Both the position numbers and the translations under genes were made by a program. Below are positions 4,775-62,218 of a DNA stretch of 64,000 bases, piece after piece (the first letter of the stretch is position 1; each line of letters starts with the position of its first letter). Below the pieces are notes generated by a model. That model did not search any database. It had not been told where the DNA came from and worked only from the letters and a program-made list of their open reading frames with translations. This DNA is from Longitalea luteola (GTDB lineage: Bacteria > Bacteroidota > Bacteroidia > Chitinophagales > Chitinophagaceae). The stretch spans positions 283,368 through 347,367 of the forward strand of contig NZ_JAFIQX010000005.1 in NCBI RefSeq assembly GCF_017356035.1. Reading direction: 5' to 3'.

Positions 4775-5001
4775 TCATTATTAGCTAATTAGCTAATGTG
4801 CTAATTAGCTAATTAAAAACGCCCTAATTAAACGTTCCTAATGTAAGTTGGCGCCAATAGTGCTTTTTGTTGTAAATGCATGCCCGCTGCGGGATGACAG
4901 TCAATGGGCAAGGGTATAGAAGGCGAAGGGAGCAGTAAGTAATGATCCATATCGGACATTTCATTAGCTAATTATCAAATAAGCACATTAGCACATTATT
5001 C
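4775..5001. repeat. Mirrored A-type array between hmgA and the efflux operon
   Basis: The left arm (4776-4815) is built from TTAGCTAATTAGCTAATGTGC. The right arm (4961-5001) is CATTAGCTAATTATCAAATAAGCACATTAGCACATTA-like. About 145 bp of ordinary sequence lie between and form the loop. No gene is visible in the 334-bp gap. Confidence 0.7.
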
Positions 5002-7040: not shown

Positions 7041-7170
7041 TAGAAAATCTGATAATGAGATAATATGATGCTTTAAAAGCAGCAGTTCCTATAAAGCGGA
7101 GCTCCCACGTAAGCATTCATTAAATTCTGTATTCCATTATCACATTATCGGATTATCACATTATTACATT
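7041..7170. repeat. Mirrored A-type array inside the efflux operon
   Basis: Left arm CTGATAATGAGATAATATGATG; right arm CTGTATTCCATTATCAC followed by further ATTATCNN units (7127-7170). The loop between is about 65 bp. The right arm contains the reverse complement of the core AATGGAATACAG. It lies between co-directional genes. Confidence 0.75.
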
Positions 7171-7182
7171 AAATAAAAGCTC

Positions 7183-8124
7183 ATGAACAAACTTATTGTA
7201 ACCCTTACTGCTACAGCGATGCTTTTTGCAGCCTGTAACCGTAATGCGCAGAAATTCGATGCTTCCGGTACATTCGAAGTAGATGAAGTGATCGTTTCTG
7301 CCGAGCAAACCGGAAGAATATTATCGTTCAACGTATTTGAAGGGCAGGCCATTCCTCGCGAACAGGTCGTGGGCATTATCGATGCTGAAAATCTGTCTTT
7401 GCAAAAGGAACAGATGCAGGCCACTATTGAAGCCCTGCAGGAAAGAACATATAATGTAATGCCGCAGATAAAACTACTGGAAGAACAGCTGGCTGTTCAG
7501 CAATCGCAATTGAAGAACCTGCTGCATGAACGTACGCGTATTGAGAACCTGTTGAAACAGGATGCGGCTACCGGCAAACAACTGGATGATATTACTTCGC
7601 AGATAGAAGTATTGCAAAAGCAAATGGATGTTACGCGCCAACAGATCAATGTGCAGCGAACCAACACCTATACGCAGAACCGGACGGTGCTCAGCGAAAA
7701 AAAGCCATTGGAGAAGAGAGTGGCGCAATTAAACGAGCAGATCGGCAAAGCGCAGATCATTAATCCGGTGGACGGAACTGTTATTACGAAGTATGCCGAA
7801 GCGGGCGAGGTAACGTCGGCCGGCAAGGCCCTGTACAAGATCGCCAATCTCGATACCCTTACCCTGCGCGCTTATATCACCGGTACGCAATTGCCACAGA
7901 TAAAGCTGAACCAGGCTGTAAAGGTGATGATCGACAGCGGCGCAAAAGCTTACAGGGAATACCCCGGAACCATTACCTGGGTGAGTGATAAAGCGGAGTT
8001 CACCCCAAAGACCATACAAACAAAGGACGAGCGGGCGAACCTGGTATATGCTATCAAAGTACGTGTAAAGAATGACGGTTATTTAAAGATCGGTATGTAT
8101 GGAGAGGTGATGTTTGCGAAGTAG
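7183..8124 (+). CDS. HlyD-type periplasmic adaptor (YbhG-like), lipoprotein
   Basis: A 313-residue membrane-fusion protein linking the ABC pump to the TolC channel. It starts with an SPII signal and lipobox (MLFAAC, Cys at about residue 18). A barrel-sandwich half-motif follows (VSAEQTGRILSFNVFEGQAI), then a long coiled-coil hairpin (about residues 65-185, rich in Gln/Glu/Leu heptads), the second lipoyl half (INPVDGTVITKYAEAGEV) and a beta-barrel domain. This matches YbhG/EmrA-like adaptors. It lies third in the operon, between tolC and the ATPases. Confidence 0.92.
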   Translation: MNKLIVTLTATAMLFAACNRNAQKFDASGTFEVDEVIVSAEQTGRILSFNVFEGQAIPREQVVGIIDAENLSLQKEQMQATIEALQERTYNVMPQIKLLEEQLAVQQSQLKNLLHERTRIENLLKQDAATGKQLDDITSQIEVLQKQMDVTRQQINVQRTNTYTQNRTVLSEKKPLEKRVAQLNEQIGKAQIINPVDGTVITKYAEAGEVTSAGKALYKIANLDTLTLRAYITGTQLPQIKLNQAVKVMIDSGAKAYREYPGTITWVSDKAEFTPKTIQTKDERANLVYAIKVRVKNDGYLKIGMYGEVMFAK

Positions 8125-8200
8125 TTGATAAGTTAATAAAGTTGATAGCGTTGATAAAGGAGACTCTATCAACTCTATCAACCCTTTCAACTTTTAATCT
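8124..8200. repeat. Mirrored D-type array (GTTGATAA word)
   Basis: Left arm: repeated GTTGATAA(G) units beginning at the hlyD stop codon. Right arm: TATCAACTCTATCAACCC units. The loop is about 10 bp. It has the same mirrored design as the A and B arrays but a different word. Confidence 0.7.
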
Positions 8201-9934: not shown

Positions 9935-10050
9935 AGACTTACAGGTTTCAGGTTGCAGGTAGAAAAAGTTACAGGTTGCAGCCTTTAAATATTTGAAGGG
10001 AGCAAAGGATAGGGCCCTGAACCTGTACCCTGTACCCTGTAACAGATACT
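9935..10050. repeat. Mirrored C-type array (ACAGGTT word)
   Basis: Left: CTTACAGGTTTCAGGTTGCAGG and a second ACAGGTTGCAG. Right: GAACCTGTACCCTGTACCCTGTAAC. The loop is about 45 bp. It lies between the second ATPase and the first permease. Confidence 0.7.
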
Positions 10051-13974: not shown

Positions 13975-14039
13975 TTTCCAGTTCGAAATCGGTTGATAAT
14001 AGTTATTGGCGTCTACATTATAGTTTGACATGGGCTGAT

Positions 14040-14316
14040 AAAAGTTTTTGGCGTAACGTTTATAGCTGGAAATGGTGCTCCAAAAGTTTTTGGAGTATGG
14101 TTTATTGCTGGAAATGGTGCTCCAAAAGTTCTTGGAGTATCGTTTATAGCTGGAAAAGGTGCTCCAAAGGTTTTTAGCGTATGGTTTATAGCTGGAAATG
14201 GTGCTTCAAAAGTTTTTGGCGTAACGTTTATAGCTGGAAATGGTGCTTCAAAAGTTTTTGGAGTATGGTTTATAGCTGGAAATGGGGTGAAAATAATTTT
14301 TAGCGTACCATTTAAA
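14040..14316. repeat. Six-copy 42-bp tandem repeat
   Basis: Units begin at 14065, 14107, 14149, 14191, 14233 and 14275. Each starts GCTGGAAATGGTGCTCCAAA and ends GGAGTATGGTTTATA. A partial unit precedes (14040-14064) and the last copy is diverged. Differences cluster at a few sites (CCA/TCA, GGAGTATGG/GGCGTAACG). The 42-bp period is a whole number of codons, so two plus frames and one minus frame stay open, but none has a plausible start. No unique spacers occur between units. Confidence 0.9.
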
Positions 14317-16788: not shown

Positions 16789-16862
16789 GGTACAGGTTAC
16801 AGGTTGCCCGGAAAAGCCTGAAACCTGTAACCTGTAACCTGTAACTTGTAACCTGTAACTTA
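16789..16862. repeat. Mirrored C-type array
   Basis: Left: GTACAGGTTACAGGTTGCC. Right: GCCTGAAACCTGTAACC repeated to 16860. The loop is about 8 bp. It begins at the MFS stop codon. Confidence 0.75.
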
Positions 16863-17970: not shown

Positions 17971-18042
17971 CTGTTTGCGGGTTGTAGGACTGATGAATTA
18001 TAAAAACAACAAACTACAAACAACAAACAATAATCAAGAATT

Positions 18043-18423
18043 ATGGCTCGTATTGCCGGTGTAGACTTACCCAAGAATAAAAGAGGCGAAATTGGTCTTA
18101 CCTACATTTTTGGGATCGGCCGTTCAACTGCCCAGTATATACTTACCAAAGCAGGTATTGCGCTGGACAAAAAAGTACATCAGTGGAATGATGACGAACT
18201 GAACGCTATCCGTAATATCATTACCAACGAATTCAAGGTAGAAGGTCAGTTACGTTCTGAAGTGCAAATGAGTATCAAGCGTTTACTCGATATCGCCTGC
18301 TACCGTGGTTTGCGCCATCGTAAAGGATTACCTGTTCGTGGTCAACGTACACGTACCAACAGCCGTACCCGTAAAGGAAAACGGAAAACTGTTGCCGGTA
18401 AAAAGAAAGCACCTAAGAAATAA
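18043..18423 (+). CDS. rpsM: 30S ribosomal protein S13
   Basis: 126 residues, full length. It opens [20 protein letters not shown], contains the helix-hairpin-helix [16 protein letters not shown] and has the basic tail [18 protein letters not shown]13 contacts tRNA in the head of the small subunit and bridges to the 50S. It belongs to the alpha operon. Confidence 0.98.
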
Positions 18424-18429
18424 TAAATG

Positions 18430-18500
18430 CGCTAAGCTACAAGGCACAAGGTACAAGGTTCAATTTTTTGATTCTTGTGCCTTGCCGCTTGTGGCTTGAG
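18430..18500. repeat. Mirrored E-type array between rpsM and rpsK
   Basis: Left: GCTACAAGGCACAAGGTACAAGG. Right: CTTGTGCCTTGCCGCTTGTGGCTTG. A T-rich loop of about 15 nt lies between. It would fold into a strong hairpin inside the ribosomal operon mRNA. Confidence 0.7.
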
Positions 18501-18620
18501 CTTTTATATAATTGCACCAATTATAACAGGTCAGCAACAGATACCAGGTGCAGGTGGAGTGTTGATCTGGTTCCCACTCAAATGGGAGTTATTTTTAAAC
18601 AAGATTACCTGTAAACAATT

Positions 18621-19027: not shown

Positions 19028-19107
19028 AATTTCTGATTTACGATTTCGGGATTTTAGGATTTGAATTTTTAAATCCCAAAATCCCGACATCCGAAATCTC
19101 GAAATAT
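19028..19107. repeat. Mirrored B-type array between rpsK and rpsD
   Basis: Left: TTTCTGATTTACGATTTCGGG and GATTTTAGGATTT. Right: AAATCCCAAAATCCCGACATCC and GAAATCTCGAAAT. The loop is about 6 nt. Confidence 0.75.
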
Positions 19108-19185
19108 ATTTTAACAGGGTGCACGATTGATTTTTAAGATTTTTAGGATCGTGTACCGTCACCAAAAAATCTAATTAATAACAAC

Positions 19186-20922: not shown

Positions 20923-20929
20923 TCAATTA

Positions 20930-21034
20930 AGCTAATGTGATAATTAGCTGATGTGATAATGCTTTTGCGCGGCCTTTGTAAGCGCCGGTTTTTGGATTAT
21001 CAAATTATCGAATTATCACATTATCACATTAATA
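20930..21034. repeat. Mirrored A-type array between rpoA and rplQ
   Basis: Left: AAGCTAATGTGATAATTAGC and TGATGTGATAATGC. Right: GGATTATCAAATTATCG and AATTATCACATTATCACATT. The GC-rich loop is about 40 nt. Confidence 0.75.
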
Positions 21035-21084
21035 ACAGTAGACTGTAATTCCTGACACGGTACAGTCGATAAAACAACAACGTC

Positions 21085-23383: not shown

Positions 23384-23515
23384 GTCTGATTTCTGATTTC
23401 GAGATTTCGAGATTTCGAGATTTCGAGATTTAGAGATTTTGGGATTTTGAGATTCATCAGCATGTTCAAGCCTGCGCAATTCCATAATCGCGCAATCCCG
23501 AAATCAGAAATCGTT
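23384..23515. repeat. Mirrored B-type array after aroQ
   Basis: Left: CTGATTTCTGATTTCGAG, then GATTTCGAGATTTCGAG and GATTTTGGGATTTTGAG. Right: CGCAATCCCGAAATCAGAAATC. The loop is about 45 nt. It begins at the aroQ stop. Confidence 0.8.
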
Positions 23516-23635
23516 TTCCAGTCGCGGTAGCCAATTTTAACAAAGCCCCTTATATTCGATCGGCAATGAATTGCGGGGGTTGGCGTTATTATTGCGAAGG
23601 ATAAGTTGTTTATTACCATTATCAAATCTGTTACA

Positions 23636-24289
23636 ATGCGATTGATATTATTTGTGTTCCTGCTGGGGTTTTCGGTATGCAGTTTTGCCCAATGGAAGGA
23701 TTATAAACTTACCTCAAAGGGCGATACCCTGAACCGGATCGACAAACTGGGCCGGAAATGGGGGCCCTGGAAGCACCACCATGACAACGTGCGGGGCGAA
23801 CCTGGCTATGAAGAAGAGGGTTGGTATGAAAAGGACCGCAAGGAAGGGGAGTGGCGCTTATATTCGCTCATGGGCGACCTCGTAGGCATCGAATATTACA
23901 AATGGGGCCTTAAGGACAGCATCTGCCGCTATTTCAACAAGGATGGTGCTTTAAGACTGGAACAGAGCTGGCGCGCCATGAATCCCGATAAGGAATATGA
24001 TACCCTCGAAATTGAAGATCCAGACAAATTCGATACTTACCGCACCGTTATCGTAAAGAATGAAGGCGCTGCCATCAAGCACGGCGTATGGAAATATTAC
24101 GATCCTGTTAGCGGACGGGTGATCCGCTCAGAACTGTACACCCTGGGTAAACTGGAACAGGAAGCAAAAAGCGCCCCCGTAACCACTGAAAAGAAACCGG
24201 TTGCCAAACCAAAAGAAGTGGTGGAGTTTGAAAAAAAGAATTCAGGAAAGAAGAAAGTGAGGTATAAAGATGGAAGCACGGGTGGTTAA
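23636..24289 (+). CDS. Secreted MORN-like repeat protein
   Basis: 217 residues with a signal peptide (MRLILFVFLLGFSVCSFAQ). The mature part has repeated Gly/Trp/Tyr-rich strands (KWGPWKHHHDN, EEGWYEKDRKEGEWRLYS, IEYYKWGLKDSICRYFNKDG, KHGVWKYYDPVSG), like the MORN-variant/YwqK antitoxin-type repeat. A Lys-rich tail follows. Such proteins are common in Bacteroidota and their function is unknown. The start at 23636 is chosen because it gives the clean signal peptide. It converges with the T9SS protein gene, with a strong shared terminator between. Confidence 0.78.
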   Translation: MRLILFVFLLGFSVCSFAQWKDYKLTSKGDTLNRIDKLGRKWGPWKHHHDNVRGEPGYEEEGWYEKDRKEGEWRLYSLMGDLVGIEYYKWGLKDSICRYFNKDGALRLEQSWRAMNPDKEYDTLEIEDPDKFDTYRTVIVKNEGAAIKHGVWKYYDPVSGRVIRSELYTLGKLEQEAKSAPVTTEKKPVAKPKEVVEFEKKNSGKKKVRYKDGSTGG

Positions 24290-24437
24290 TTAGCAAATGT
24301 GATAATGTGCTAATTTGCTAATGAAATACAATTTTAAAAATAGAAGGCCCCGCTTGTTGGCGGGGCCTTCTATTTTTATTAATACTTATAAGAGCTTAAT
24401 TAGCACATCAGCACATTAGCTAATCAGCACATCAGTT
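24290..24437. repeat. Mirrored A-type array enclosing a terminator
   Basis: Left: TTAATTAGCAAATGTGATAA to AATGAAATACAA (24318-24331 holds the core CTAATGAAATACAA). Right: TTAATTAGCACATCAGCAC to CACATCAG. The loop holds the bidirectional terminator at 24336-24377. Confidence 0.75.
24336..24377. terminator. Bidirectional terminator, 18-bp perfect stem
   Basis: AAAAATAGAAGGCCCCGC pairs perfectly with GCGGGGCCTTCTATTTTT around a 6-nt loop. The A and T ends give U-tracts in both directions, serving the convergent genes on either side. Confidence 0.92.
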
Positions 24438-32671: not shown

Positions 32672-34654
32672 ATGGCGAAAATTCCTAAACTGATCCGGTG
32701 GATATTATGGACTGGCTTGATTTTCCTTGTTCTATTCACGCTCATGAGGCTGGGGTTATTTATTCTTTCCGACCAGCAAAGTTATGGCCTTAGCCAATTA
32801 GGCGGGTCTTTTTTCCTGGGTTTGCGGTATGACCTGCGCATGATCTCCTGGTTACTGATACCCATGCTTGTTTTGGGAAGTATACCCGTATTACATCCCT
32901 TTTCCAGTGGCCGGGGAAAAAAATTCTGGATGATCACCCTGGCGGTGGCCATTTTGTTTGCACTTTTCTTCTTTTCGGTTGACTTTGCCCATTATGCTTA
33001 CCTGGAGCAGCGGCTGAATGCCAGTGTACTGAATTACCTGGAAGATGCCCGCATTTCCATGGATATGGTCTGGCAATCGTATCCGATTGTGCGGATGGTG
33101 CTGGCGGTTTTGCTTGTTGCCGCCGTGTTGATCTGGATCATCCATCGTGCACACCGCACGGTCAGCAAGCAATCGTTTACCGGAACAAAACGCAATCGCA
33201 TTATTTCCTTCGCCGTTTGCTTCGTGGTTTTCGGCTTTTTCATTTTCGGCAGGTTCAACCAGTACCCGCTGCGGTGGAGCGATGCATTTGCACAGGGCAG
33301 CGACTATAAAGCCTACCTGGCACTGAACCCGTTTGAAAGTTTTTTCAGCACGCTGAAGTTCAGGCACAGCACCTATGATGAAAAGAAAGTGAAGGCTTTT
33401 GCCCCGGTCATCGGCGAACATTTTAATTTTCCGACGGACCTGCCTTTTCCGGCGGCCTTTCGGCGAACCGTAAATCCGCGGCCCGGCGCGATCACCACCC
33501 AGCCTAATATTGTACTGGTCATCTGTGAATCGTTCAGCGCCTATAAAAGTTCCATGTATGGCAATCCGTTGAATACCACTCCCTTTTTCGATAGTTTATG
33601 CCGGCAGGGCATCTTTTTCGACCGTTGTTTTACACCTACCTACGGAACTGCCCGCGGTGTTTGGGCAACCATTACCGGCACACCCGATGTGGAAATGCCT
33701 AAGACCGCCAGCCGTAATCCGGCTGCTGTTGACCAGCATACCATCATCAACGATCTTACCGGCTACGAGAAATTTTACTTTTTGGGCGGAAGCACCAGCT
33801 GGGCGAACATCCGCGGGGTGCTTACCAACAATATAGATGGACTTCATTTATACGAACAGGAAGATTATAAGGCAGAAAAGATCGATGTATGGGGCATCAG
33901 TGACAAGAACCTGTTCCTGGAAGCCAATAAAGTGCTGGCCCGGCAGCAGAAGCCTTTTTTTGCCATTATTCAAACGGCAGACAACCACCGGCCATACACC
34001 ATACCGGAGGAAGACCTGAAGGAGTTTAAAAAGATAGAGGCGCCTGCGGATTCCCTGGCGAAATATGGGTTTGAATCCCTGGCGGAAATGAATGCGTTCC
34101 GGTACACCGATTTCGGTTACCAGAAATTTATTGAAGCTGCCCGTAAGGAAAAGTATTTTAACAATACCATATTCGTGTTTATCGGCGACCATGGCATTCC
34201 CGGCAATGCCGATGCGCTGTTCCCCAGATCATGGACGGCCCAGCGGCTGACCAGTATGCATGTGCCCCTGTTATTCTATGCACCCGGGCTGCTGGCGCCC
34301 CGCCGCATCAATACCATCAGTTCACAAACCGATGTATTGCCCACCATTGCCGGATTGTTGAATATCAAATACACCAACAGCACACTCGGCAAAGACCTGC
34401 TGGATTCGGCCACCAAAGGGTTTGCATTTATTTTTGATCCGGATAACAGCATGACCGGTGTGGTGAAGGGTGATTATTTATACCGCAAGCAGCTGGTGAC
34501 CAAAAAAGCAGAACTGGTTTCCATTGTAAATAATGAACCCGTTCCCAACGATGCGGAACATGCCGCCATTGCGCATGATATGCAGGTGCTTACCGATGCG
34601 TTGTATGAGACGGCGAAGTTTATGTTGCTTAATAATAAGAAAGGGGGCAAATAA
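32672..34654 (+). CDS. LTA-synthase-family membrane sulfatase
   Basis: 660 residues. Four or five N-terminal membrane helices (to about residue 190) are followed by an extracytoplasmic sulfatase-type domain. Metal/nucleophile signatures are NIVLVICESFSAYKSSMYG, FFDRCFTPTYGTARGVWATITG (catalytic Thr), FIGDHGIPGN and HVPLLFYAP. LtaS-like proteins transfer or hydrolyse phosphoglycerol-type groups on cell-envelope polymers or lipids. Gram-negative homologues modify lipids or periplasmic glucans (OpgB or phosphoethanolamine-transferase-like). The exact substrate cannot be told. It is divergent from the PAP2 gene. Confidence 0.88.
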   Translation: MAKIPKLIRWILWTGLIFLVLFTLMRLGLFILSDQQSYGLSQLGGSFFLGLRYDLRMISWLLIPMLVLGSIPVLHPFSSGRGKKFWMITLAVAILFALFFFSVDFAHYAYLEQRLNASVLNYLEDARISMDMVWQSYPIVRMVLAVLLVAAVLIWIIHRAHRTVSKQSFTGTKRNRIISFAVCFVVFGFFIFGRFNQYPLRWSDAFAQGSDYKAYLALNPFESFFSTLKFRHSTYDEKKVKAFAPVIGEHFNFPTDLPFPAAFRRTVNPRPGAITTQPNIVLVICESFSAYKSSMYGNPLNTTPFFDSLCRQGIFFDRCFTPTYGTARGVWATITGTPDVEMPKTASRNPAAVDQHTIINDLTGYEKFYFLGGSTSWANIRGVLTNNIDGLHLYEQEDYKAEKIDVWGISDKNLFLEANKVLARQQKPFFAIIQTADNHRPYTIPEEDLKEFKKIEAPADSLAKYGFESLAEMNAFRYTDFGYQKFIEAARKEKYFNNTIFVFIGDHGIPGNADALFPRSWTAQRLTSMHVPLLFYAPGLLAPRRINTISSQTDVLPTIAGLLNIKYTNSTLGKDLLDSATKGFAFIFDPDNSMTGVVKGDYLYRKQLVTKKAELVSIVNNEPVPNDAEHAAIAHDMQVLTDALYETAKFMLLNNKKGGK

Positions 34655-34794
34655 TGTGATAATGTGATAATGTGATGATGTGATAATGTGATGATGTGAT
34701 GATGTGATAATGCGCATATTCGGGAGGTCTGTCAAATAGCAGGCCGCCCGATTATCAATAATTATCACATTATCGAATTATCAAATCATCTAAT
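34655..34794. repeat. Mirrored A-type array, longest left arm
   Basis: The left arm (34655-34715) is about eight units of GTGATAAT or GTGATGAT, beginning with the TAA stop of the preceding gene. The right arm (34755-34794) is AATTATCACATTATCGAATTATCAAAT. The loop holds GGAGGTCTGTC and a GGCCGCCC segment. Confidence 0.85.
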
Positions 34795-35533
34795 TCTTCT
34801 CCGCAATCATGATCATCCGCGGGCTTTGTTTTATATCGTAGCCATTGAGATTATAATCTCCATACACTTCTTTCAGCTGCAGGTCGTAAAAGGCAAACAT
34901 ATCGTTGAAATCGCCGAGGGAGAATTTGGCTACTTTCTCGGTGTATTCCAGCGGCGCCTCCAGGGCCTCGTCTTCGATCTCGATCTTCTTGTAAAAATGC
35001 GTTTCATCGAACCATTTGGTAAGGTAATAGGTAACATCGTCAATTACCTTTTCCTGTTTATGCACCAGGTGGTCCTCGGCAAAATGCACGTTCAGGTAAT
35101 CTATTACCAGGGTACCCTTGTGCACCAGGGAGCCGGCAATGGTGCGGATGGCGTTGTAGTGTTCACGTTCTGTTCTGAAATAGCCAAAACTGGTAAACAG
35201 GTTAAAAGCGTAGTCGAAGTAGTTTATCCAGAAGGGCAGCCGCATGTCATGCTCAAAGAATTGCAGGTGGCCATTCTCCTGTTCCCGGGCAATGGCAATG
35301 CTGTCGGGGGCCAGGTCGATGCCGGTTACATCGAACCCTTTTGAGGCGAGGAATTTAGCATGCCGGCCGCGGCCGCAGGCTACATCGAGCAGTTTGGCAT
35401 GTTCGGCCGGCTTTAGTTTCCCGAGCAGCCTGGTCATAAAGGCGGAGGCTTCCTGCTCGTCGTGTTCAAAATATAATTTATGGTAATAAGGTGAATTGAA
35501 CCACTCTTTGAACCAGTTACTGCTGTTGAACAT
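34790..35533 (-). CDS. Class I SAM-dependent methyltransferase
   Basis: 247 residues. The SAM-binding motif I is LLDVACGRGRHAKFLASKGF, followed by motif II (VTGIDLAPDSIAIA) and motif IV-like LVIDYLN. The N-terminus (MFNSSNWFKEWFNSPYYHKLYFEHDEQEASAF) is typical of a small Bacteroidota group with an unknown methyl acceptor. Cytoplasmic, single gene. Its last codons lie in the right arm of an A-type array. Confidence 0.9.
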   Translation of the reverse strand: MFNSSNWFKEWFNSPYYHKLYFEHDEQEASAFMTRLLGKLKPAEHAKLLDVACGRGRHAKFLASKGFDVTGIDLAPDSIAIAREQENGHLQFFEHDMRLPFWINYFDYAFNLFTSFGYFRTEREHYNAIRTIAGSLVHKGTLVIDYLNVHFAEDHLVHKQEKVIDDVTYYLTKWFDETHFYKKIEIEDEALEAPLEYTEKVAKFSLGDFNDMFAFYDLQLKEVYGDYNLNGYDIKQSPRMIMIAEKN

Positions 35534-41923: not shown

Positions 41924-42240
41924 CGCTGAACGCTTAACGCTGAACGCTAAACGCGGAACGCAAAACGCTAAAGGCTCAAGGCTAAATACAAAACGCAAAA
42001 CGCACATCAGCATATTAGCACATCAGCTAATTAGCTAATCTGCACATTTGTGCTGTTCATCATCAAATTATCAAATTATCACATCATCACATCAGCTAAT
42101 CAGCATATTAGCGCTGTTTTTCATTATCACATTATCAAATTATCACATCATCACATTAGCTAATTATCGTTAGCGCTGTATTTCATTAGCACATCAGCTA
42201 ATTAGCTAATCAGCACATTTGTGCTGTTTCATCATCACAT
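41924..42240. repeat. Compound repeat block: E-type, then tandem A units
   Basis: It first holds tandem (T)AACGCTGAACGC and AACGCAAAACGC words (41924-42002). Then four A-type units follow, each opening with CTGTTTTTCATTATCAC or a variant, at about 42053, 42114, 42176 and 42224. The last runs into the mutS stop region. No gene lies in the 316-bp gap. Confidence 0.8.
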
Positions 42241-45687: not shown

Positions 45688-45708
45688 TAATGTGATAATG
45701 TGATAATG
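45664..45708. repeat. A-type array overlapping the 3' end of the SpoU gene
   Basis: TTAGCTAATGTGATGATTTG, then ATAATGTGATAATGTGATAATGC; the first units supply the last five codons and the TGA stop. Confidence 0.75.
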
Positions 45709-45717
45709 CAGTTTCAG

Positions 45718-45760
45718 CATTGTCGACTGACGATTGTCGACTGACGATTGTCGATTGCGA
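45718..45760. repeat. F-type palindromic tandem (GTCGACTGACGATT)
   Basis: TGTCGACTGACGATTGTCGA followed by CTGACGATTGTCGATT, a short 15-bp tandem of the F-type words. Confidence 0.6.
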
Positions 45761-45811
45761 TGACGATTCCTGCCCAATAAAAAATATACATTCAATATTC
45801 GATAAACAACA

Positions 45812-49325: not shown

Positions 49326-49485
49326 AAATGTGATAATTTCATAATGTGATAATGTGATAATGAATCCAATTCAGGGAGGTTCGATAGCTCGCAGGCTTCC
49401 CCTAATTTCTAAATTATCTAATTATCTAATTATAGCATTATCGAATTATCACATTAGCAAATCAGCACATCAGCACATTAGCAAA
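49326..49485. repeat. Mirrored A-type array between convergent genes
   Basis: Left: ATGTGATAATTTCATAATGTG, then ATAATGTGATAATGAATCC. Right: ATTATCTAATTATCTAATTATAGC, then CGAATTATCACATTAGC and CAGCACATCAGCACATT. The loop is about 45 nt. Confidence 0.8.
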
Positions 49486-50648: not shown

Positions 50649-51458
50649 ATGAAAACCAGTATAAAACAGGGTGTTTTATTTCGTGATCTTGGTCAGCTCG
50701 GCTACCAGGATGCCTGGGATCTGCAGGAGAGCCTCTTACAGGAAAATGTTCGCATTAAAACCGAATACCGGAACAGGAAGGCAGCACTGGATTCGGCAGC
50801 AGACAATCGGCAACCGATTATCGCCGGCCAGCCGGCGCAGGCTGATAATCGACAGTCGATCATTGATAATGAGTTAGTTGGGCCAGATACGATCCATCAC
50901 CTGTTATTTGTAGAGCATCCGCCGGTTTATACGCTGGGAAAAAGCGGCGATATTGAAAATGTGCTGATCAGTGAGGCGGAAAGAGCGGCCAAGGGGATCA
51001 GTTTTTACCATACCAACCGTGGGGGCGACATAACCTTTCATGGCCGGGAGCAGTTGGTAGGTTATCCCATTCTCGACCTGGAAAGGTTCTACACGGATAT
51101 TGGCAAATATTTGCGGAACCTGGAGGAAGTGATCATTGCCACTATGGCCGATTATGGCTTGAAAGGAGAGCGGTCGCCCGGCGAAACCGGGGTTTGGCTC
51201 GACGCGGCTATTCCGGGCAAAGAACGGAAGATCTGTGCTATGGGTATTCGCTGCAGCCGCTGGATCACCATGCATGGTTTTGCGTTCAATGTAAATACCG
51301 ATCTGTCTTACTTCAATTACATCATTCCCTGTGGTATTCAGAACAAGCAGGTGACCTCCCTGCAGAAAGAACTGGGCCGAAAGCTCGATATGAATGAGGT
51401 CAAGGACCGGGTGAAAGCGAATTTTGAAAGAGTGTTTGAGGTAGAGCTAATAGGCTAA
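50649..51458 (+). CDS. lipB: Octanoyltransferase LipB with an insert
   Basis: 269 residues, longer than usual LipB (about 215-245). It transfers octanoate from ACP to lipoyl domains. The conserved core is LLFVEHPPVYTLGKSG, NRGGDITFHG, GVWLD and KICAMGIRCSRWITMHGFAFNV, with the active Cys in IIPCGIQ. Two oddities are visible: a palindrome-encoded insert at about residues 51-75 (ADNRQPII...ADNRQSII), placed before the first conserved strand, and GREQ where LipB enzymes usually have GPGQ (HGREQ, near residue 141). The insert is in frame and causes no stop. The start ATG is 50649. Confidence 0.88.
   Translation: MKTSIKQGVLFRDLGQLGYQDAWDLQESLLQENVRIKTEYRNRKAALDSAADNRQPIIAGQPAQADNRQSIIDNELVGPDTIHHLLFVEHPPVYTLGKSGDIENVLISEAERAAKGISFYHTNRGGDITFHGREQLVGYPILDLERFYTDIGKYLRNLEEVIIATMADYGLKGERSPGETGVWLDAAIPGKERKICAMGIRCSRWITMHGFAFNVNTDLSYFNYIIPCGIQNKQVTSLQKELGRKLDMNEVKDRVKANFERVFEVELIG
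50801..50871. repeat. Palindromic element inside lipB
   Basis: It has the arms GATTATC / GATAATC around GCCGGC-CA-GCCGGC, and outer copies ACAATCGGCAACCGATTATC and GATAATCGACAGTCGATCATT. The word matches the F-type intergenic arrays at 17933-17970. It lies entirely within the coding sequence. Confidence 0.75.
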
Positions 51459-51595
51459 TTTGATAATGTGATAATTTGATAATTCGATAATGGAATACAA
51501 GTCCGAAGGAAAGCTTAGCATGGGCTATGGATTTGAAGGGACTGCTTAAATTGAAGCATTATCACATCATCACATCATCACATTATCACATTGCC
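51454..51595. repeat. Mirrored A-type array between lipB and the FN3 protein
   Basis: Left: GGCTAATTTGATAATGTGA through GATAATGGAATACAAG (51486-51501 contains the core). Right: GCATTATCACATCATCACAT and CATTATCACATTG. The loop is about 65 nt. Confidence 0.8.
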
Positions 51596-62136: not shown

Positions 62137-62218
62137 ATGTGATAATTCGATAATGTAAATACACTTTCCATGCATTATCACATTATCAAATTATCACATC
62201 ATCACATTAGCTAATTAT
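62137..62218. repeat. Mirrored A-type array, short loop
   Basis: Left: ATGTGATAATTCGATAATGTAAATAC. Right: GCATTATCACATTATCAAATT and ATCACATCATCACATTAGC. The loop is about 10 nt, giving a good hairpin. Confidence 0.8.

Follow-up and report, generated by a model that had tools for sequence, protein, structure and literature searches.

Mirrored arrays of degenerate 7- and 8-nt units at gene ends in Longitalea luteola and its relatives

The DNA stretch analyzed here (the window) comprises 64,000 nt of Longitalea luteola and lies on contig C39 of a 7.30-Mb genome that is akin to Niastella and Longitalea; its RpoA shares 99% identity with the RpoA of N. caeni and of three others. Two convergent genes (32672-34654 on the plus strand and 34790-35533 on the minus strand) flank the gap 34655-34794, which holds a mirrored pair of degenerate tandem arrays whose arms touch both stop codons. 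The left arm (34656-34711, plus strand) starts at the stop codon of the plus-strand gene and consists of seven NNGATRAT units. It is followed by a 49-nt loop with a short GC hairpin of its own (34712-34760) and by a right arm of four inverted units (34761-34792, minus strand), which reaches the stop codon of the minus-strand gene.

A sequence-only reading of this DNA had listed eight gaps of this kind, and all of them carry a GTGATAAT-like left arm and a ATTATCAC-like right arm. In the others the arms, left on the plus and right on the minus strand, are located at 4782-4813 and 4963-4994 (GTGATAAT/NNGATRAT unit family); at 7049-7064 and 7136-7159, with GGAATACAG at the inner side of the right arm; at 20929-20960 and 20996-21027, in the rpoA-rplQ spacer in the interior of the alpha operon; at 24283-24322 and 24399-24430; at 49330-49361 and 49413-49484, the latter with nine units, eight of which match the family pattern given below; at 51444-51491 and 51558-51589; and at 62139-62154 and 62174-62213. 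The left arms at 7049-7064 and 62139-62154 are short, with just two units each. The left arm at 51444 overlaps the 3' end of the gene 50649-51458, and the gene 23606-24289 uses the first TAA of the one at 24283 as its stop codon; the loop of the latter pair contains a terminator-like hairpin with 19-nt perfect arms (24335-24378). Blocks of GTGATAAT-family units also form a higher-order array with a period of about 64 nt on the minus strand (42006-42216).

The mirrored layout in the window is not confined to GTGATAAT and is also built from other families of 7- to 9-nt units. These include the 8-nt unit GATTTCGG in the rpsK-rpsD spacer (approximately 19035-19105), an AAGGCAC-like 7-nt unit in the rpsM-rpsK spacer (approximately 18440-18510), the 8-nt unit GATTTCGA (23395-23505), the 7-nt unit TTACAGG at two places (approximately 16801-16860 and approximately 9950-10041), and a GTTGATAAA-like 9-nt unit (8123-8192). 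No Rfam family matched the window at its gathering score, and no tRNA genes were found there. A 42-nt tandem repeat of about six copies lies at 14018-14314, inside a 105-codon reading frame of the minus strand.

Counts beyond the window are based on a sample of 1.264 Mb (the window plus 1.2 Mb of other contig stretches, approximately 17% of the genome), in which 1017 genes were called by a purpose-written hexamer script and tandem repeats by TRF with relaxed penalties (2 3 5) and a score of at least 40. Arrays of period 6-10 are present in 276 of the 778 gaps of at least 40 nt, compared to 4-7 in five dinucleotide shuffles. Period-7 and period-8 clusters number 256 and 153 in gaps and 12 and 9 in genes; periods 6, 9, and 10 account for 1, 4, and 5 gap clusters, and periods of at least 13 for 167. 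The arrays are tandem 7-nt units with conserved and free positions (examined for the GTGATAAT family) and are mainly intergenic, the 8-nt half being an extension of this form. The pattern is real and wider than first described, with many unit families beside GTGATAAT. Families were told apart by their TRF consensus units, a large share of these being variants of each other; common units are GTGATAAT, TTACAGG, and GATTTCGG. The check for recurrence that the sequence-only reading had proposed found arrays to be numerous elsewhere in the genome.

The arrays lie at gene ends, mostly with the G-rich strand running from the gap edge to the center, and roughly one in two is matched in its gap by an inverted arm from its own family. 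Counted by cluster, 66 of 134 convergent, 176 of 496 same-strand, and 35 of 148 divergent gaps bear arrays (49% of convergent vs 24% of divergent gaps). Stop-proximal arrays start a median of 3 nt (convergent) or 6 nt (same-strand) past the stop codon, which bears out the proposed placement at gene ends, and start-proximal arrays end a median of 35-46 nt ahead of starts. There are 58 sense GTGATAAT arrays close to a stop; 18 of them overlap the end of the frame, and among the 40 that do not, the gene's stop is in register with the TRA of the unit in 18 (expected 5, 1 in 8; p=4e-7).

Among the 409 arrays, 55.7% share their gap with an inverted match (score of at least 10), with hairpins possibly counted via both arms, compared to 8.1% when gaps were swapped and 10.8% for direct matches; approximately 44% of the arrays have no inverted partner at this threshold. 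Arrays of the GTGATAAT family were defined by runs of at least three units of the pattern ..G[ACT]T[AG]AT. The 1.264 Mb contain 111 of these, of which 109 lie in gaps, and the reversed-sequence control contains none. The GTGATAAT orientation comes first in all 36 non-overlapping opposite pairs (26 gaps); overlapping matches were excluded from this count because TAGCTAAT is nearly palindromic. Thirteen hand-chosen array regions were folded as RNA against 100 shuffles each, giving z-scores of -3.1 to -11.4 on the plus strand and -1.8 to -10.9 on the minus strand. Together with the inverted-partner test, this folding-energy check agrees with the long imperfect stems predicted by the sequence-only reading.

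G outnumbers C in the 5' arm of 120 of 152 hairpins taken from all families, and C outnumbers G in 27; this bias is stronger for period 8 (61 vs 2) than for period 7 (59 vs 25). The G-rich strand points inward from the nearest gap edge in 270 of 382 arrays and outward in 91, and a few families are reversed in polarity (for example AACGCTT, 0 inward vs 6). Arrays after stops have G>C (89:43 and 73:16) and those before starts G<C (74:23 and 34:9). The location of the G-rich strand, sense after stops and antisense before starts, is a preference with exceptions. General base skew of gene flanks was rejected as the source of this polarity, with G at 0.206 and C at 0.203 in array-free gaps after stops; array-free gaps before starts have more C (0.192) than G (0.153). 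A fence of stop codons (T[AG]A every 8 nt, in all frames) was also considered. It fits period 8, in which the 5' arm has more stops in 51 hairpins and fewer in 7, but is not general, since period 7 is reversed (more in 31, fewer in 50). Asymmetry of G/U wobble at unit position 6 was not significant (p=0.09).

The single-base variation that had been noted among GTGATAAT units is present but is not random. In 192 units sandwiched between matching ones, G, T, A, and T occupy positions 3, 5, 7, and 8 in 95-99%. Apart from two units with T, position 4 is limited to A and C, with G absent, and 187 units have A or G at position 6. Adjacent units share position 4 in 80% of 325 comparisons (50% expected), and position 6 is at expectation. 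The loops had been described as unrelated, which is the case for most of them but not for all: some contain an intrinsic terminator (for example at 24335-24378), and 32 of 109 GTGATAAT-family arms lead straight into GRAATAC (GRAATACAG in 16 of these). AATACA was rejected as a universal junction motif, since it belongs mainly to the GTGATAAT family in the L. luteola genome (17 of 74 GTGATAAT TRF arrays vs 8 of 308 arrays of other families; 1.3% in background windows). Similarity searches among 90 loops gave 46 edges, approximately 35 of them via one 20-nt palindrome, compared to 0-4 in shuffles, and some loops within one unit family are alike.

Arms match by family, rather than unit by unit. 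For the GTGATAAT family, the best-register score summed over 26 gaps is 90, compared to 95.1 +/- 3.3 when units were permuted (1886 of 2000 permutations reached at least the real score) and 88.5 +/- 7.4 when arms were swapped between loci. On the permutation test, inverted duplication of one arm was rejected for this family. Among 135 hairpins of all families there is a weak excess (mean rank 0.643), which is biased upward by preselection of the hairpins for their best match; the mean rank is 0.761 for loops of up to 20 nt (n=20) and 0.623 for longer ones (n=115).

Within the GTGATAAT family the unit core is conserved and the order of units is not, and the family and number of units turn over rapidly between species. 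In ten congeneric genomes, inspected by eye, the gap at 34655-34794 contains an array pair in six, a terminator-like hairpin alone in one, and only 0-3 nt between the stops in three. The six filled versions use GTGATAAT (three) or a GTGCTGAT, GTGAGTG-like, or AATTTGAA-like unit (one each). At gap 51459, three of eight genomes (including the window) have GTGATAAT, four have other units, and one is empty, and the orthologues of gap 46754 are 0, 0, and 4 nt long in three genomes. The central hairpin of gap 24290 is kept as the arms change, with a GC-rich hairpin of this type in all eight congeners with data (by eye). In the rpoA-rplQ spacer, arms are of the GTGATAAT type in the window and in RpoA loci L012, L013, and L015 and of the GATTTCGG type in L011; L014 uses another unit, and L016 has no arms. 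In congener G005 the orthologue of gap 45688-45811 is 465 nt long and contains long, nearly pure GGCAGTA/GGCAGAA arrays that resemble a recent expansion. Congener G008 has 3 arrays in 40 kb, compared to 11 to 28 in seven others and 5 in 24 kb in G006; it is array-poorer and not array-free, as the adjacent 17 kb (L016) has 4.

Comparison with the related genome G001 covered 456 orthologous gap pairs, with arrays in both genomes in 118, only in the L. luteola genome in 49, only in G001 in 21, and in neither in 268. Gap lengths differ by a median of 39.5 nt if either gap has an array and of 3 nt if neither does. The unit family is the same in 57.6% of the 118 shared gaps, compared to 13.6% in swapped gaps. 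In 167 aligned GTGATAAT-family units from 27 gap pairs, differences at positions 1-8 are 37, 22, 3, 36, 7, 31, 2, and 4%, where the L. luteola units were selected by pattern, those of G001 were not, and the alignments may pair non-orthologous units; the remaining DNA of these gap pairs differs by 23%. Predicted base pairs are kept no better in array gaps than in non-array gaps: 74.4% of 3806 still pair in G001 in array gaps (control 73.0%) and 79.6% of 5120 in non-array gaps (78.5%), with 111 compensated double changes in array gaps (78 expected) and 89 in non-array gaps (70 expected). Hairpin status is common to both genomes where the unit family is the same (two-by-two counts 9, 4; 6, 46) and weakly kept where it differs (18, 6; 6, 8; p=0.08).

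The range of the arrays was examined in 80 RpoA loci (L011-L090, for the most part Chitinophagaceae, with others bearing only Bacteroidota or something else in the title), which have 147 period-7 and 69 period-8 clusters, and 4 and 29 of periods 6 and 9, with genes included in these counts; 18 of the loci have no period-7 or period-8 cluster. With L011-L016 left aside, an inverted partner lies near 86 of 179 arrays (5.0% when swapped) and polarity is 64:3. In twenty 20-kb RpoA regions from across the phylum, three of the same family have 6, 0, and 1 arrays and the 17 others have 9 in total. The GTGATAAT unit itself is found in three of 60 genomes of the family, at 211 places in L. luteola and at 5 and 1 in the other two.

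Cyanobacterial STRR heptamers form intergenic arrays, as those described here do, and REP/BIME elements sit at gene 3' ends. In the arms studied here, degenerate tandem arrays of many families take the place of a conserved 20-40-nt palindrome such as that of REPs, which are described, in the part of the literature drawn on, as intergenic palindromic repeats of 20-40 bp proposed to act in termination and mRNA stabilization (PMC3733652). TAACTGA direct repeats have been reported in Beggiatoaceae, Cyanobacteria, and five Bacteroidetes (MacGregor 2015, PMC4679880). According to the sections of that report considered, these heptamer arrays also occupy gaps, including those of putative ribosomal protein operons, and relatives have shorter, repeat-free gaps; but their unit is exact, they lie mostly just upstream of start codons, and one inverted repeat occurs in 170 sets (PMC4679880), whereas the present arrays are degenerate, stop-proximal, and frequently paired in inverted orientation. 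The GGGGAYT repeats of Nostoc likewise form intergenic heptamer arrays but, as far as they are described in the excerpted account, with few paired inverted repeats (PMC4692102), unlike those here.

The closest counterpart is in Xanthomonas, where the portions of the report considered describe G-rich heptameric GGGANTN arrays (186 and 183 repeats in two genomes, of one unit family picked for G-quadruplex capacity), including 70 and 75 convergent inverted pairs (PMC4692102). They favor the 50 bp or less after stops (sense) or before starts (antisense), some overlap the stop, they are rare between divergent genes, and their length and sequence differ among related species; RNA-seq found transcript starts and stops more frequently at G4-capable repeats than at controls, with function left open (PMC4692102). 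The Xanthomonas GGGAATC/GGGANTN heptamers, as characterized there, share with the present arrays degenerate and mostly intergenic units, inverted pairing, placement, strand preference, and scarcity in divergent gaps. They differ in that here there are many families, of 7- and 8-nt units, and that roughly one-sixth of the genome contains 409 arrays. The G-quadruplex-capable unit is also not found here as a rule, with at least four GGG runs in 13 of 382 arrays and at least four GG runs in 132. The mirrored arrays are of the same kind as the Xanthomonas heptamers, and in Niastella and its relatives they have diversified into many unit families. The sequence-only reading knew of no described family with this architecture; this is partly incorrect, since inverted heptameric pairs with a like placement have been described in Xanthomonas (PMC4692102). 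No account of such arrays in Chitinophagaceae or Niastella was among the literature matches listed, which were mainly open-access.

We tentatively favor the explanation that these are fast-turnover gene-end arrays that form register-tolerant stems and serve as generic 3'-end structures. Arrays would start out at stop codons and lengthen as units are duplicated, and a second inverted arm of the same family would then provide a stem. Such a stem may be a generic 3'-end structure, independent of sequence, at which exonucleases are blocked, processing is marked, or polymerase coming from either direction is slowed; it would be useful on average but dispensable at any single locus. Because every unit of one arm can pair with every unit of the other, the stem would survive gain or loss of units, and conserved cores without a unit-by-unit match between arms are as expected if only register-free pairing matters. 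Inverted partners in the gap, in L. luteola and in loci of relatives, and the gene-end placement speak for this reading, as do the in-register stop codons for seeding, the sharing of position 4 by adjacent units for a local spread of units, and the smaller number of intrinsic terminators in array gaps, which fits partial substitution. Its weak point is that the conservation of predicted pairs does not support a pairing function: pair retention is not above that in non-array gaps, and hairpin status is weakly kept after a change of family. Also counting against it are the empty gaps of some congeners, the approximately 44% of arrays that are unpaired, the 91 of 382 with outward polarity, and the restriction to A/C at position 4 and A/G at position 6, which is not predicted by pairing alone. 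The register-tolerant stem leaves the origin of the second arm and the inward direction of the G-rich strand unexplained.

The lack of pair retention above background speaks for a neutral by-product, in which replication slippage in steps of 7-8 nt in promoter-free gap DNA, with arms arising by fold-back template switching, produces the arrays and selection is not involved. Fast turnover, dispensability, distance from starts, and the local homogenization of units at position 4 all point the same way, and a polymerase-footprint origin of heptamers has been discussed, within the part of the text considered, in Rehm et al. 2015 (PMC4692102). We nevertheless regard this as doubtful. Pure slippage is insufficient because of the frozen unit positions and the polarity: slippage is position-blind, yet four of eight GTGATAAT positions are near-fixed, and the polarity shared by most families is not predicted. 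Further, a templated arm should match its partner unit by unit, which the score of 90 vs 95.1 and the weak all-family excess do not show. The near-fixed core with its alphabet-limited positions, together with each GTGATAAT-family arm being an independent draw from a genome-wide unit pool, would suit arms to which a sequence-specific protein or RNA binds, with a separate one for each family. This is very unlikely, as the many unrelated families would need many readers and replace one another in orthologous gaps. Most speculative, and hardly probable, is a dedicated strand-directed process that adds 7-8-nt G-strand units 5'->3' from both gap edges inward, in the manner of telomere-type templated addition. 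If true, it would account for the same family in both arms, the independent unit order, the inward G-strand, the 7-8-nt ruler, and the fixed and free positions, and it would also have produced the known heptamer arrays in Xanthomonas and in Nostoc.

The sequence-only reading had itself proposed that the arrays end transcripts or insulate neighboring genes, that is, a dedicated bidirectional terminator or insulator element. Arrays are commonest between convergent genes and have strong stems, and classical terminators are rarer in array gaps: in a strict perfect-stem scan of gaps of 60-400 nt, intrinsic terminators are present in 6 of 61 convergent gaps with arrays vs 12 of 48 without (p=0.04), and in 7 of 151 vs 24 of 241 same-strand gaps. 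However, arrays lie within the spacers of the alpha operon rpsM-rpsK-rpsD-rpoA-rplQ (S13, S11, S4, RpoA, and L17 named via NCBIfam), orthologous gaps of some congeners have no arrays, and at 24290 a classical terminator in the loop persists while the arms change. As a class the arrays do not match intrinsic terminators, defined by a GC-rich stem followed by a T run. A dedicated terminator or insulator is unsupported, given the operon-internal copies and the fewer intrinsic terminators in array gaps, and a terminator role is insufficient because copies are operon-internal and dispensable; we consider it unlikely. Equally unlikely is a dispersed mobile repeat (MITE- or REP-like) inserting at stop codons, with the arms as its subterminal repeats. 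The inner motif GRAATAC at 32 of 109 GTGATAAT arms, the likeness of some loops within families, the filled and empty orthologous sites, and the nearly genus-limited GTGATAAT family are in its favor, and, of MITE-type features, filled and empty sites are seen while arms vary in length and family. It is insufficient because loops are unrelated and families change in place; most loops are without common sequence, approximately 35 of the 46 edges being due to the one palindrome. A single strong Y1_Tnp match is present in each of ten genomes, including the array-poorest, and RVT_1 is above cut-off in nine, the exception being a 61%-complete genome. Machinery identified by presence or absence was rejected, as neither set of matches is related to array numbers. 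A search for an autonomous partner between arms 1150 nt apart at C39:236355 found no called genes.

Placement, pairing, and G-strand direction recur in another phylum with many units that have no GGG tracts, which suggests that G-quadruplexes are not the main point of the heptamer architecture in Xanthomonas. With filled, swapped, and empty versions of the same gaps available in ten congeners, the purpose of bacterial 7-nt intergenic arrays becomes testable. Caution is warranted as well, since fast-changing gene-end hairpins may be mistaken for conserved RNA elements or terminators.

Several other elements were observed. The single RAYT-like Y1 transposase gene of the L. luteola genome (G000:C39:257213-257668) is followed by a reading frame 10 nt downstream; GTGAATG and ATTGACC arrays lie just before it and a GTGATAAT-family array approximately 1.2 kb upstream. 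The perfect 20-nt palindrome CCTGCCTGCCGGCAGGCAGG has 29 exact copies genome-wide (for example G000:C11:213876-213895) and is also present in G002; it or a near copy links ten of the 90 array loops. This palindrome is a REP-like element separate from the arrays. In the alpha operon, the region before rpsM (17972-18075) has a weak Alpha_RBS match (20 bits, below the cut-off of 38). A conserved leader-like hairpin around ATTCCTGACACGGT precedes rplQ (21028-21084, and in L011-L014). Its stem shows paired changes between relatives (GACTGTA/TACAGTC vs GGTTACA/TGTAGCC), and it had no Rfam matches up to E 0.5; it is a candidate L17 autoregulatory leader. Before rpsD (19090-19185), a conserved element GTGYACGAT...ATCGTGTACCGTCACCAAAAAATC is found in Niastella relatives and is also predicted to form a stem.
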